64,000 nt of DNA, taken from Phototrophicus methaneseepsis (GTDB lineage: Bacteria; Chloroflexota; Anaerolineae; Aggregatilineales; Phototrophicaceae). Shown in pieces: positions 14,622 to 18,454 of this stretch. The position numbers and the translations under genes were made by a program. Position 1 is the stretch's first letter. The number at the start of each line of letters is the position of its first letter. The stretch covers positions 3,038,001 to 3,102,000 of the forward strand of contig NZ_CP062983.1 of NCBI RefSeq assembly GCF_015500095.1. The letters run 5' to 3'. Under the pieces are notes generated by a model, which saw only the letters and a list, made by a program, of their open reading frames with translations, searched no databases and was not told where the DNA came from.

Positions 14622-16016
14622 TTAGGAAGCTGGATCAGGCATTCGGATGCGGGCAAAGGCTATGATGGCGAGTATGCTCATTGCAATGCCCCCGACTAAA
14701 AAGGGCACTGTTTCGCCATAATGCTGGAAGATGAGGCCCATGACAATCGGTGCTGCGGCATTGGCTGCGCTGACAAATGAGGAACTCAGGCCCAGAACGA
14801 CGCCATAAGCATTTTTACCGGCTCGCTGTGTCATGAGGGTGTTCAGCATAGGCCGGATCAGCCCGGAGCCAATGGATAGCGGTACAAGCGCGACAAGGAA
14901 CCATATAACGCCGCCGATACCGTTATTCCCCTGGGCGGGTAAGTCAACGGCAATTTCTCCAACGATGGCCTCTGTACTGCTGGGGGCCTGGCTTGCGAGC
15001 TCGTTTTCCACGATAGGCCGCACATAAAAAGGCTGTGGCTGCTCTGGTGTTGTAGCGACCAGCAGCAACCCCGCTGCCAACAGCGCCATAGCGACGGCAG
15101 CCATACGTGCCTCGCCATATTTGCGTGCCCACTTGCCAATGAACCGCACCTGTACCATCACCAGTATCGTGCCGATAAACAGGAACAAGATCGCGTTTCC
15201 CTGGCCGAGCAAGCCCAATCGCGTCAAAGTAAATAAGCCCATCAAGCTCTCAAAGCCGTAGAAAATGAACTGCTGAGAGAACATCAGCACCAGCAAAAGG
15301 GCAATTTGTGGCAGGACGATGATGCTCATCAAGCGCATGCGCCCGGTTTTCTCGGTAGGCTCTGTTTTGTTTTTGCCGCGTGCTTCTGGTGGCAGCGTTT
15401 CTTTAAAGACGAACAGTGTCAGCAGGATAGAGATGAATGAATAGCCCGCGGCGGAAAAGGCTGGGATAGCCAGCGAATCGCTCATTTCTAGCGCGAGGAT
15501 GGAGATAATCGGGCCAAAGATAAACCCCAGGCCAAAAGCCGCGCCTGTCAGCCCCAGGCCCCGTGCCCGGTTTTTTTCGTCAGTGATGTCGCTGATTGCA
15601 GCCTGAGCTGTTGCCATATTGGCCCCAAACAGGCCATCCAACACACGCGAGGCGATAATCATCGTCAGTGAGTTCGCCATCCCGAGCATGATAAAGCTCA
15701 GGCAAGTTGTAATCTGGCTGATGAGCAGTAAGGGTTTGCGCCCGTAGCGGTCGCTAAGGGCCCCCATTGCCGGAACGCCAATGAGCTGTGCTAGAGGGAA
15801 GGCGGCTGCAACAAGGCCGATTTCCAGAGGTGTCGCGCCGAAGGCGGCAGCGTACAGGTGGAGTAAGGGTAAGATGACGGTCAGGCCGAGGACGTCAACG
15901 AATACCAGGGCGAAGATGGGCATTACCTGATTGAAGTCGAGGCCGTTATCAGTTGGCGTATCAGCCTTTAGGGCAGGCTGCTGCGATGTGCTCAGCTTAT
16001 TTACCTTTCCATTCAA
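14622..16016 (-). CDS. MFS transporter, tetracycline-resistance-protein-like
   Basis: A 464-residue membrane protein with twelve predicted segments. The N-terminal half shows the drug-exporter pattern: PIFALVFVDVLGLTVILPLL in helix 1 and the motif-A loop GALSDRYGRKPLLLIS after helix 2, as in TetA-type proton antiporters. Between halves there is a charged loop (LPPEARGKNKTEPTEKTG), and a periplasmic insert of about 45 residues (PEQPQPFYVRPIVENE and on) sits in the second half, longer than usual. Its start overlaps the end of the upstream enoyl-CoA hydratase gene by 20 bases, so the two are cotranscribed. Substrate unknown; calling it a drug pump is inference. Confidence 0.85.
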   Translation of the reverse strand: MNGKVNKLSTSQQPALKADTPTDNGLDFNQVMPIFALVFVDVLGLTVILPLLHLYAAAFGATPLEIGLVAAAFPLAQLIGVPAMGALSDRYGRKPLLLISQITTCLSFIMLGMANSLTMIIASRVLDGLFGANMATAQAAISDITDEKNRARGLGLTGAAFGLGFIFGPIISILALEMSDSLAIPAFSAAGYSFISILLTLFVFKETLPPEARGKNKTEPTEKTGRMRLMSIIVLPQIALLLVLMFSQQFIFYGFESLMGLFTLTRLGLLGQGNAILFLFIGTILVMVQVRFIGKWARKYGEARMAAVAMALLAAGLLLVATTPEQPQPFYVRPIVENELASQAPSSTEAIVGEIAVDLPAQGNNGIGGVIWFLVALVPLSIGSGLIRPMLNTLMTQRAGKNAYGVVLGLSSSFVSAANAAAPIVMGLIFQHYGETVPFLVGGIAMSILAIIAFARIRMPDPAS

Positions 16017-16800
16017 CAGGGTATGTTTTGTTTATCATAGCGTTTACCCCGTTGTAAAAGTCTTCCGTGCGGATGAGCTGAGCCTGGGCCCAGGCTTCTA
16101 TCTTTAGGTTGCCACGATCATCCAGCATGTCGTTAATTGTGCGTTTGGTATAGCTCACGGCTAAAGGCGCACTCAACATAATATCCTTAGCGAGTGCTTC
16201 AGCCTTAGGAATGAGATCATCTTTGGGGACGACATAGTTCACAATTCCCCATCGCTCTGCATCTACCACGTCGATATTGCCGCCCGTCATGATGATTTCT
16301 TTAGCGCGGGAAGGCCCGACCAGCCGCAGTAGGCGCGTTGTGCCGCCCACATCCGGGATCATCCCAAGGCGGGATTCTGGCAGGGCAAGCTTAGTGCGTT
16401 CCGCAATAATGCGGAAGTCACACGCGAGCGCAAGCTCCATACCCAGGCCCAGGCAGTAACCATGCATCAGGCAAAATGTCGGCAGCGAACAATCTTCGAT
16501 TTTATTCATCACACTTTGTAAATCTGCCGTTGTCGGGAAGAGATTATCACGCCAGTTTTCGCCGTATTTATTTTCATCTTCCAAAAAGCTCGTCAGGTCG
16601 ATACCTGATGAAAAAACACGCCCCTCCGCCCGGATGAAGAGTACCCTTGCTTCGCCCTGGATGAACGCTCTTTCAGCATCATCAATGGCCTTGCCGATTT
16701 CCTCGACCATCTGGATGTTCATTGCGTTGCGCTTATCAGGACGATTCAATACAATCTCAAAAATCTGGTCGTGGGTTTCGGTCAAGATAAACTCGTACAT
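15997..16800 (-). CDS. Enoyl-CoA hydratase/isomerase family protein
   Basis: A 267-residue crotonase-fold protein. The CoA-binding NRPDKRNAMN motif is near residue 20, the oxyanion-hole segment is FSSGIDL, and both glutamates used by true enoyl-CoA hydratases are present (GLGMELALACD and LPESRLGMIPDVGG). It probably adds water to 2-enoyl-CoA in fatty acid or amino acid breakdown. Of two in-frame ATGs, I take the second (16800), since AGAGAG lies 9 bases before it; the first (16809) directly abuts that sequence. No other beta-oxidation gene is close, so the pathway is unassigned. Confidence 0.87.
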   Translation of the reverse strand: MYEFILTETHDQIFEIVLNRPDKRNAMNIQMVEEIGKAIDDAERAFIQGEARVLFIRAEGRVFSSGIDLTSFLEDENKYGENWRDNLFPTTADLQSVMNKIEDCSLPTFCLMHGYCLGLGMELALACDFRIIAERTKLALPESRLGMIPDVGGTTRLLRLVGPSRAKEIIMTGGNIDVVDAERWGIVNYVVPKDDLIPKAEALAKDIMLSAPLAVSYTKRTINDMLDDRGNLKIEAWAQAQLIRTEDFYNGVNAMINKTYPVEWKGK

Positions 16801-16911
16801 AGGCAACATCTCTCTTTATGATGGGCAAATGCCGTGTGAGTATACCTCAGAGCCATTCAATTTAGCATCTTGCACAAACAAAATCGGATATATTATGGGA
16901 GTCTTGTCCGG

Positions 16912-16940
16912 TTGACAGGGTAAGTGCATCGTGTCACAAT
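16912..16940 (+). promoter_or_regulatory. Sigma-70 type promoter for the aminotransferase leader
   Basis: A perfect -35 TTGACA (16912-16917), a 17-base spacer and CACAAT (16935-16940, four of six to consensus). Transcription would begin near 16947, giving a leader of about 190 bases before the aminotransferase start. Confidence 0.6.
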
Positions 16941-17009
16941 TTGCACTGTTGGGCCGGATGGTTCAATGACCGCAATTTGTGCGGAATAATGCGATAAAGG
17001 CCGTTTCTT

Positions 17010-17060
17010 GTGAACAGCATGAACACCACCACCGATACTATGAATCGCCGGAGCGGATAA
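17010..17060 (+). CDS. Leader peptide, 16 codons (MNSMNTTTDTMNRRSG)
   Basis: A short reading frame begins at a GTG with AAAGG 9 bases upstream and stops with TAA at 17058-17060. Eleven of its sixteen residues are Thr, Asn, Met or Asp, all members of the aspartate family of amino acids, with three Thr codons in a row. It lies between a good promoter and a set of mutually exclusive hairpins, directly before an aminotransferase gene. That arrangement is the classical one for a translated attenuator leader. An alternative start is the ATG at 17019. Translation is not proven. Confidence 0.5.
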   Translation: MNSMNTTTDTMNRRSG

Positions 17061-17121
17061 CGGTCGGGGTGTTTTGATGTCGCTAGAGTATGTTCAACAA
17101 GCCCCGACTAGGGGCTTTTTT
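17027..17121 (+). promoter_or_regulatory. Ribosome-mediated transcription attenuator
   Basis: Four segments can pair in competing ways. Segment 1 (17027-17036, CACCACCGAT, inside the leader's Thr-Thr-Asp codons) pairs with segment 2 (17063-17071, GTCGGGGTG) with one bulged A. Segment 2 core (17063-17069) pairs with segment 3 (17102-17108, CCCCGAC). Segment 3 (17099-17105) pairs with segment 4 (17111-17117) to form a terminator. A ribosome stalled on the Thr codons would cover segment 1, free segment 2 to sequester segment 3, and prevent termination. This predicts induction of the aminotransferase when the cell lacks charged Thr tRNA (or Asn/Asp). The base pairing is seen; the mechanism is inferred. 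Confidence 0.55.
17099..17121 (+). terminator. Attenuator terminator hairpin upstream of the aminotransferase
   Basis: A 7-base-pair stem AAGCCCC/GGGGCTT with a GACTA loop, followed by T residues. It ends only about 7 bases before the AGGAGG ribosome binding site, so it can act only as a regulatory terminator in the leader. Confidence 0.75.
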
Positions 17122-17140
17122 ATTATCAGGAGGAACCAAC

Positions 17141-18454
17141 TTGGTTAAGGTCATGACAAATTTAGAATTGCCCGAATATGCAGTGCCGGAAGCCAATCGT
17201 ATTCCGGTGAGTGGGCATCTGGCGACGATGACGGATATTCCGCCTTCGCGTATGTTCACCATCAAGGAAGCTCTGGCAACTTATCGTCAGAAAGCTGGTG
17301 CAGATGCACCGGTTTATGATGCCTCTCAGGGTGATGGCGGGGCCAGCCTACCAGGCGTGCCTCAATATATCCTGGAGATGGCGTTAGAAATCCAGATCGA
17401 GCATGGCACGGGTTATGATAAGCCCTTTGGTACTGAGCTGTTCCGCCAGACGGCCGCTGAAAATTATTGGCACCTAGATAGCAGCACTGGCTGGGGACCT
17501 GGCAATATTATTTTCGCACAGGGTGGGCGCGATGCACTGCAAAAAGCGTATACGGCAATGTCCTTCCTGGGGCATGGCCGCATTGGCGACCTGATTGTCG
17601 TCAGCCGCGTACCATGGATCAGCTATAACTGGGGCCCTTATGGCGTCGGCTTAAATGTGATGCGTGCCCCTGGTGACCCGGAACAGGGCTGGCGCTACAC
17701 GCCGGAAGGCATTCAGGCATGTGTGACCATGGCTGAAAAAGACGGTCGTAAAATTGCTGGTATCGTCATCACCTCACCGGATAACCCGACAGGCCGGACC
17801 GTCCCGCTGGAAGAGCAAATTATGCTGGGTAAGACGGCTATTGCAGCTGGTATCCCATTCGTGCTCTATGACTGGATGTACCATTACGTCACCGATGGCG
17901 AGCCGTCAGATATTAATAAATTGTTGAACGCCTTTACCCCGGAAGAGCGTAAGAGCATTATGGTGCTGGATGGCATTACCAAGAGCCTGGGCGCTTCCAA
18001 CATCCGTAGTGCGCACCTGCTGGCCGATACGAAGGTGATCAAATTCATCAACAGCCAGTCTTCTCATGGTGTGATCCCCAGCTTTTATGCTCAGGCTGTG
18101 GCGATTGCCGCTTATCGCCAGGGATTTGCAGAAGCAGCCAGCAGCATCATCGAGCCATGCAGCGCCAGCCGTAAGGTGCTGCGCGGTGTCCTGGAAGAGA
18201 ATAACTTCAAATTCGTGATGGGTGACGGTTATTACGCTTTCATCGACCTGACGAGCTATATTGAAGCGGGTGGCTTCGATTCCAGCGAAGGAATTGGTCA
18301 ATATCTGGGCGAAGAACACGGTATTGCTGTGGTTCCAGGTGCATTCTTCAGTGATGCTGGCGCGAATTGGGTGCGCTTTAGCTATGCGCTGCCGCCAGAA
18401 CGTACAGAAGCCGCCGCCAAGCAGTTGCTTAAAGGCTTGAGTGCACTGGGCTAG
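17141..18454 (+). CDS. Class I/II pyridoxal-phosphate aminotransferase
   Basis: A 437-residue fold-type I aminotransferase. The PLP lysine is in LDGITKSLGASNIR, the substrate/PLP asparagine in SPDNPTGRTV, and the ring-binding Asp in LYDWMYHY. The N-terminal part has SQGDGGASLPGVPQYI and the C-terminal substrate-carboxylate arginine is likely in NWVRFSYALP. I start at TTG 17141, which has AGGAGG 7 bases before it; the ATG at 17153 is also possible. Extending to the ATG at 17090 would put a terminator hairpin inside the gene. The amino acid donor is not evident; the leader peptide composition hints at an aspartate-family substrate or product. Transcription ends at a strong terminator at 18488. 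Confidence 0.88.
   Translation: MVKVMTNLELPEYAVPEANRIPVSGHLATMTDIPPSRMFTIKEALATYRQKAGADAPVYDASQGDGGASLPGVPQYILEMALEIQIEHGTGYDKPFGTELFRQTAAENYWHLDSSTGWGPGNIIFAQGGRDALQKAYTAMSFLGHGRIGDLIVVSRVPWISYNWGPYGVGLNVMRAPGDPEQGWRYTPEGIQACVTMAEKDGRKIAGIVITSPDNPTGRTVPLEEQIMLGKTAIAAGIPFVLYDWMYHYVTDGEPSDINKLLNAFTPEERKSIMVLDGITKSLGASNIRSAHLLADTKVIKFINSQSSHGVIPSFYAQAVAIAAYRQGFAEAASSIIEPCSASRKVLRGVLEENNFKFVMGDGYYAFIDLTSYIEAGGFDSSEGIGQYLGEEHGIAVVPGAFFSDAGANWVRFSYALPPERTEAAAKQLLKGLSALG

Follow-up and report, generated by a model that had tools for sequence, protein, structure and literature searches.

The genome of Phototrophicus methaneseepsis ZRK33, a deep-sea Chloroflexota bacterium, comprises 5,631,885 bases in one contig. 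In the window analysed here, a stretch of 64,000 nucleotides at C1:3038001-3102000 of its forward strand, a TTG-started class I/II aminotransferase gene (17141-18454, + strand) is preceded by a region (17010-17121) with the anatomy of an amino-acid-coded attenuator. The gene stands alone, its neighbours on both sides being encoded on the opposite strand: an enoyl-CoA hydratase family gene upstream (15997-16809) and ABC transporter genes, assigned by eye, downstream. The features of the locus, in window coordinates, are:

16865..16877, + strand: conserved upstream element GCATCTTGCACAA, recognised by the pattern GCAnnYTGCAC[AG] in ortholog upstream regions
16912..16940, + strand: sigma-70-type promoter TTGACA-17-CACAAT, from a promoter scan, with a similar pattern in relatives
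17010..17060, + strand: leader peptide ORF VNSMNTTTDTMNRRSG followed by a stop, from ORF reading, with a Thr-rich ORF kept in relatives
17022..17034, + strand: segment 1 (AACACCACCACCG), pairing with segment 2, from folding, duplex energy and covariation in the Anaerolineales
17061..17078, + strand: segment 2, pairing with segment 1 (via 17061-17073) or with segment 3, from duplex calculation
17093..17110, + strand: segment 3, forming the antiterminator with segment 2 and the terminator with segment 4, from duplex calculation
17099..17121, + strand: intrinsic terminator, stem 17099-17117 (3:4) plus U run, from a terminator scan and folding
17129..17134, + strand: ribosome binding site GGAGG of the aminotransferase gene, from direct reading
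17141..18454, + strand: class I/II aminotransferase with TTG start, a proposed aspartate aminotransferase, from PF00155, the ortholog alignment and the nearest structures

The promoter pointed out in the initial annotation of this DNA is present at its place, matches 10 of 12 consensus bases and carries a TG before the second hexamer. A scan of the window found 2 promoter-like sites against 3.7 expected from shuffles, a count not above chance, so the promoter is weak evidence on its own. The leader comprises 16 codons, starting with GTG at 17010 or an in-frame ATG at 17019 and ending with TAA at 17058-17060, behind a weak ribosome binding site (AAAGG at 16996-17000, by direct reading); the earlier count of eleven aspartate-family residues among the sixteen is correct when the GTG initiator is counted as Met and not otherwise. 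Folding recovered the four proposed segments, which form either a protector stem plus terminator or an antiterminator. The 17000-17130 stretch folds at -40.1 kcal/mol (z -2.03), with 9 of 200 shuffles equally good. The 2:3 antiterminator (17061-17078 with 17093-17110) reaches -21.0 kcal/mol (p 0.007 when the upstream strand is dinucleotide-shuffled), the 1:2 protector stem -23.7 kcal/mol (p 0.10) and the 3:4 terminator stem -12.4 kcal/mol. The terminator scan found 6 terminator-like sites in the window, where 2.5 were expected, and no Rfam family, including Thr_leader and T-box, matched the window at its gathering score. The single-sequence evidence for an attenuator is suggestive; it is the comparative evidence from relatives that lifts it above chance.

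Orthologs of the aminotransferase (E <= 1e-80) are encoded in 56 of the 98 genomes of the bacterium's own family and also occur in families f3, f4 and f6 of its order. In a class-wide sample, 26 of 297 genomes match at E <= 1e-120, these belonging to families f1, f7, f8 and f32. Sixty-nine upstream regions were taken, two of them cut short (L007 and L009) and one belonging to a second, more distant copy (L071). A terminator lies near the gene in 43 of the 56 own-family regions, although in one of them, L026, it probably marks where the upstream gene ends, and the same scan found none in the 13 ortholog upstream regions from other families of the order. The short frame is kept: an ORF with at least three Thr codons ends before the terminator in 39 of these 43 regions, as against 15% of shuffles, and one with at least four in 33 (4% of shuffles). 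Examples are MRMFARNTTDTMNRRRS, MLMLTITTTDTNRRRG, MTMRVIMTTTDTNGMPQR, MLATNTTTNMDTIVIT and MRNNRMTDTTTNFLTSR. The promoter pattern TTGAC-n-AAT recurs in 35 of the 43 regions and in 0.3% of shuffles. The segment 2/3 pairing, whose loss in close relatives would have told against an attenuator, is likewise retained, with p<0.05 in 25 of 43 and p<0.2 in 36 of 43, and the 1:2 pairing is weak (p<0.05 in 6 of 43). In five of the regions (L022, L023, L050, L043 and L053) segment 2 is covered by the leader ORF, the last codons of which encode a conserved APPGxGxLPHPxx-like tail directly 5' of the terminator. Families f7 and f8 have a promoter-like sequence close 5' of the gene, as judged by eye. Of 67 upstream regions of orthologs, 27 carry the GCATCTTGCACAA-type pattern GCAnnYTGCAC[AG] 5' of the promoter, as against 0.09% of shuffles; the element is a possible regulator site. 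By a simple rule, TTG is also the likely start codon in 45 of 69 ortholog regions, an unusual conservation of a rare start.

A second and larger set of leaders is found in family f32 of the Anaerolineales, in which 86 of 150 genomes match the ortholog at E <= 1e-120, a cut-off that misses fragments at contig ends. From 110 upstream regions, 10 in which the scan found no terminator and 22 duplicate or too short ones were set aside, leaving 78, and 65 of these, chosen by eye, entered an alignment spanning start codon to U run. The 13 that were not aligned comprise three acidobacterial regions, four Thr-rich ORFs with an unclear start (L145, L243, L260 and L268) and six without a clear leader or with a terminator from elsewhere (L169, L176, L200, L245, L247 and L269), a selection that can favour Thr-rich leaders. 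The Geothrix orthologs (L161 and L175) have a terminator-like hairpin without a Thr leader. The Anaerolineales leaders are longer than those of the own family, MFRQIVVDTTNTNRNTRTHTVTGRWYLSGEHEQVHSS being an example, and show the same three alternative helices: segment 1 AATACCAA pairs with TTGGTATT, segment 2 CGGGGCGTTGGT with ACCAAACGCCCCG, and ACCAAACGCCCCG with CGGGGCGTTT. Standard pairs fill 424 of 520 cells (82%) in 1:2, 693 of 780 (89%) in 2:3 and 577 of 585 (99%) in 3:4. Compensating changes accompany them. Cells changed on both sides number 20 in 3:4 (mean 3.0 and maximum 8 in 1000 shuffles), 18 in 2:3 (mean 5.0, maximum 12) and 14 in 1:2, which is just above its shuffles (mean 6.5, maximum 13); since the shuffles keep shared descent, these figures are not probabilities. 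At one site the three segments co-vary together, reading GCG in 43 of the 65 rows and ATA in 8. The ORF of many Anaerolineales leaders extends over segment 2, so that a ribosome reading on would take away segment 2 itself. Among the leaders at L146-L267, the start codon follows a TGnTATnnn box (-10) by 7-10 nt in 64 of the 65 aligned cases. A start so close to a -10-type box would make the leader mRNA leaderless, and the Anaerolineales leader peptides are probably read from such mRNA.

The codon make-up of the leaders is biased towards amino acids that share a precursor: Asp, Asn, Thr, Met and, via argininosuccinate, Arg all draw on aspartate. In a frame-blind test, in which amino-acid content was compared with shuffles and no frame was chosen, Thr is in excess in both groups of loci analysed (z 6.5 in 43 loci and 8.6 in 28 loci) and Asn in the second (z 9.5, against 2.3 in the first), and Met in the 43 loci (z 7.2) and Ile in the 28 (z 6.8) also stand out. 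Read in frame, the control part of the 65 Anaerolineales leaders (1263 residues) contains 22.6% Thr, 17.8% Asn, 10.4% Arg and 4.8% Asp, while the other two frames contain 7.9% and 1.5% Thr and are broken by 65 and 129 stops. The corresponding values for 27 own-family leaders (439 residues) are 26.7% Thr, 12.1% Arg, 10.0% Asn, 7.3% Asp and 7.3% Met; these leaders were assigned by eye out of the 43 and hence do not provide an independent count. Thr alone is not the rule, as four of the 65 Anaerolineales leaders have at most one Thr, among them L246 and L250, which encode an identical peptide that keeps many Asn residues.

It is quite probable that the region upstream of the P. methaneseepsis gene is a ribosome-mediated attenuator that senses the tRNAs for Thr, Asp and Asn, and perhaps for Met and Arg, in front of a likely aspartate aminotransferase. 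As RNA polymerase produces the leader, a ribosome would translate the short ORF. Given ample charged tRNA for these amino acids, the ribosome would reach the stop codon and block segment 2, the 3:4 terminator would form and the aminotransferase gene would not be transcribed. Were the tRNA for one of them uncharged, the ribosome would stall on segment 1, segments 2 and 3 would pair, no terminator would form and the gene would be read. Since aspartate aminotransferase is the most likely identity of the enzyme, a shortage of aspartate products would raise aspartate supply, and the probable effect of the leader is to step up aspartate synthesis whenever amino acids derived from it become scarce.

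Folding calculations, in which the RNA under the ribosome was masked to a chosen 9 nt beyond the A site, back this switch in part only. At equilibrium in the window, the terminator has a probability of 0.67-0.95 for stalls at 17019-17033 and of 0.93-0.95 for a ribosome between 17052 and the stop. Masking opens the 2:3 antiterminator for stalls on the Asp-Thr-Met-Asn-Arg codons at 17034-17048, where P(2:3) is 0.61-0.73, but yields only 0.08-0.23 for stalls on the three ACC codons. The control codons may therefore be Asp, Thr and Asn more than the Thr triplet. The prediction of control by charged Thr (or Asn/Asp) tRNA is supported by the codon bias, which favours Thr first and then Asn, Arg and Asp. 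In window RNA ending after segment 3, stalls at all positions as far as 17052 give a 2:3 probability of 0.74-0.82, which drops to 0.31 at the stop; by this calculation segment 1 would have no part in early stalls. In the Anaerolineales, the switch is not recovered by equilibrium folding on its own, the terminator winning even with a ribosome stalled on the Thr codons (mean P(3:4) 0.81, P(2:3) 0.15). In nascent RNA, 2:3 exceeds 0.5 in all 65 Anaerolineales and all 27 own-family leaders with a ribosome on the best Thr codon, and in 0 of 65 and 3 of 27, respectively, with a ribosome near the stop. It also does so in 45 of the 65 Anaerolineales leaders with no ribosome, which indicates that segment 1 protects poorly there and that untranslated leaders would read through. 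A reading ribosome that shuts off segment 2 is accordingly better supported by these models than protection by 1:2.

The aminotransferase matches PF00155 with 91.1 bits and meets no curated cut-off among the NCBIfam models, the best aspartate aminotransferase model scoring 64.9 against a cut-off of 550 bits. The top NCBIfam match, GntC, was rejected as an identity (78.5 against 415 bits), the weak matches to many aminotransferases reflecting fold similarity only. The list of structures nearest to its AlphaFold model (pLDDT 85.5) is headed by aspartate aminotransferases (Phormidium, Thermotoga, Legionella and Thermus) and also contains prephenate aminotransferases, at Z values of 38-39.5, which show the fold and not the substrate; sequence identity to solved structures is about 20%. 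The likeness to the Thermus thermophilus and Phormidium aspartate aminotransferases (1bjw, 1gck and 1j32) extends to a fold Z of 38.5-39.5, the GG(K/R) motif and the Lys and Arg positions, whereas identity to this group is about 22% and the P. methaneseepsis enzyme differs in a longer N-terminus and a QGDGGxSLPG motif. In an alignment of orthologs from 17 of 30 loci, K276 and R407, which we take to be the catalytic Lys and the carboxylate-binding Arg of fold type I aminotransferases, are invariant. Arg125 is also invariant (17 of 17) and falls on the position of the GGK Lys when aligned with 1j32 and 1bkg, Arg replacing Lys. In class Ib enzymes this Lys presumably binds the side-chain carboxylate of aspartate; a literature search on a substrate-carboxylate role of the GGK Lys found no paper. 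Nine of the 12 PF00155 loci of the P. methaneseepsis genome were taken, and three of these, other aminotransferases compared at the GGK position, have no basic residue there. An E. coli-type AspC is encoded in one of 80 chosen genomes (G396), where it lies behind a Thr/Asn/Asp leader and no ortholog is found at E <= 1e-120, a cut-off that misses fragments, so that G396 could have a truncated ortholog elsewhere; in G390 and G412 the ortholog gene is present though missed, being truncated where the stretch or contig ends. With AspC in a single genome of the 80, no exclusion correlation between AspC and the ortholog is computable, and genomes lacking the ortholog must mostly use an enzyme other than AspC. 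Taken from these sequence comparisons, the aminotransferase is most likely a lineage-specific aspartate aminotransferase.

Leaders of the same kind occur before other genes. Two covariance models were built, R1 from 25 own-family leaders (that of the window and 24 of 36 others) and R2 from 20 of the 65 Anaerolineales leaders, and run on 21 and 31 genomes, respectively. Of nine model-match loci that were read, four lie before the ortholog, one before AspC, two before aspartate kinase and one before aspS, and one (L282) is without a leader. The AspC case in G396 (E 1.7e-6) consists of the leader MQSIIRFSTDTNTNNTRLL before an AspC/TyrB gene (NF006719, 575 bits against a cut-off of 377). Thr/Met leaders precede aspartate kinase in G408 (E 0.002) and G409 (E 0.003), and MHINWTIIININDRART.. 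precedes aspS in G037 (E 4e-4). From among the matches listed, 18 weaker ones were picked, some with E above 0.1 and with L321 and L322 left out: eight have a codon-fitting leader before a fitting gene, one is ambiguous and nine look like chance or other terminators. Many further weak matches are restricted to the terminator portion of the model. The leaders ANNNNDNNN and ANNNNNDNDD lie before aspS in G390 and G174, Met/Thr leaders before aspartate kinase in G390, G174, G402 and G394, MRTTTTMTPHRTMRGLLR before aspartate kinase in G005 and SINLIVVVLVLVLIIGGL before ilvE in G009 (E 0.19). The codons fit the gene that follows, with Asn and Asp before aspS, Thr and Met before aspartate kinase and Val, Leu and Ile before ilvE. 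On direct inspection of aspartate kinase loci (22 of 30 examined), a Thr/Met leader was found in 9 of 22, 8 of them with a scanned terminator. P. methaneseepsis itself has a Thr/Met leader, MTTMMTTMPTYIGDGEFCTP, with a terminator before its aspartate kinase gene (C1:2706811-2706873, minus strand; L330:3001-3063). No Thr leader was recognised before hom or thrC in 28 loci of the same genome and its relatives, 8 of which have a Thr-rich ten-codon window somewhere near. These sibling leaders, found on aspartate kinase and aspS genes and in a single genome on AspC, back the suggestion that the aminotransferase works in aspartate-family metabolism.

Among the individual loci, the AspC gene behind its Thr/Asn/Asp leader in G396 (L293:1501-2878) gives the impression that one enzyme was replaced by another while the leader stayed in place. 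Upstream of the aspartyl-tRNA synthetase gene, Asn/Asp-rich leaders were seen at L303, L308 and L279, the last also with Ile, and a Val/Leu/Ile leader lies before ilvE at L314. The ambiguous locus, L317, has a Lys-containing short ORF before homocitrate synthase. Judged from such sequences, attenuation may be widespread in the class Anaerolineae. A broader picture is favoured with some reserve: the Anaerolineae would control the aspartate pathway through a whole set of amino-acid-coded attenuators, with Thr/Asn/Asp leaders on a previously unrecognised, lineage-specific aspartate aminotransferase, Thr/Met leaders on aspartate kinase and Asn/Asp leaders on aspS, in which the leader outlasts the enzyme, as with the AspC of a different family in one genome, and the Anaerolineales leader peptide is leaderless.

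The attenuator could also sense Thr, Asn and Asp while the enzyme transaminates another linked substrate, such as prephenate or a different dicarboxylate. Prephenate aminotransferases are structurally as close (top Z 39.1, against 39.5 for aspartate aminotransferases), and the missed family cut-offs and the roughly 20% identity to solved structures leave room for such a substrate. The leader codon make-up speaks for aspartate instead, as do the Arg at the GGK position and, as a single case, the leader of this type that precedes AspC in G396; a prephenate substrate would be expected to call for Phe and Tyr codons. We consider a different substrate unlikely, though clearly the most serious of the alternatives.

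It is less probable still that the ribosome is stalled by the peptide sequence or by general slowing and not by a specific uncharged tRNA. Many Anaerolineales leaders also retain the tail GRWYLSGEHEQVHSS, and Arg is enriched as well; the tail overlaps segment 2, however, and pairing can account for part of its conservation. The Thr/Asn/Asp content of the control part is maintained despite changes in its length and order, and the sibling leaders switch codons with the gene behind them, both of which argue for tRNA sensing. That the hairpin is an ordinary terminator of an upstream transcript next to a chance short ORF, with no regulation, seems barely credible. The promoter count of the window would agree with it, as would the scan of the order's other families, in which all 13 regions have the gene without a terminator. 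The upstream gene (15997-16809) nevertheless lies on the other strand, and conservation, covariation and codon bias are found in two orders, the three-way covariation speaking strongly against a chance arrangement.

Attenuation by charged Thr, Asp and Asn tRNAs at this locus would resemble several known systems. The ilv leaders respond to three amino acids in one leader and so sense several pathway end products; the P. methaneseepsis leader would share the sensing of several end products, while here the branch point is aspartate and the gene would stand at the pathway entry. The thr leader of E. coli (thrL; Rfam Thr_leader), the codons of which are Thr and Ile, likewise combines a Thr-codon peptide, alternative hairpins and a terminator before a biosynthetic gene, and differs from the Thr, Asn and Asp (and Arg) codons found here as well as in gene, phylum and sequence. 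The 1:2/2:3/3:4 logic with pathway codons in segment 1 is that of the trp attenuators of E. coli and, according to PMC1262725, the Actinobacteria. In contrast to the trp type, the P. methaneseepsis and Anaerolineales leaders carry several amino acids of one family, and the Anaerolineales ORF covers segment 2 and has its start codon 7-10 nt downstream of the -10 box (64/65).

Leader-peptide attenuators are described in Proteobacteria, Actinobacteria and some Firmicutes in PMC2965389, PMC1262725, PMC3766115 and PMC4833913. No report of a Chloroflexota aspartate-family attenuator was found in the portion of the literature covered, which consists mainly of non-subscription papers. The mechanism suggested by the sequences is classical, and its place and codon set are unreported in the literature covered. 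The initial annotation knew of no such leader for an unlinked class I/II aminotransferase; leaders of this kind are confined neither to the aminotransferase gene nor to P. methaneseepsis. The leader codons give a testable reading of the role of an unnamed enzyme, namely aspartate supply, and the sibling leaders make a codon-to-pathway rule checkable within one clade. The leaderless leader peptide of the Anaerolineales, if true, would couple attenuation to translation that begins at the very first codon.
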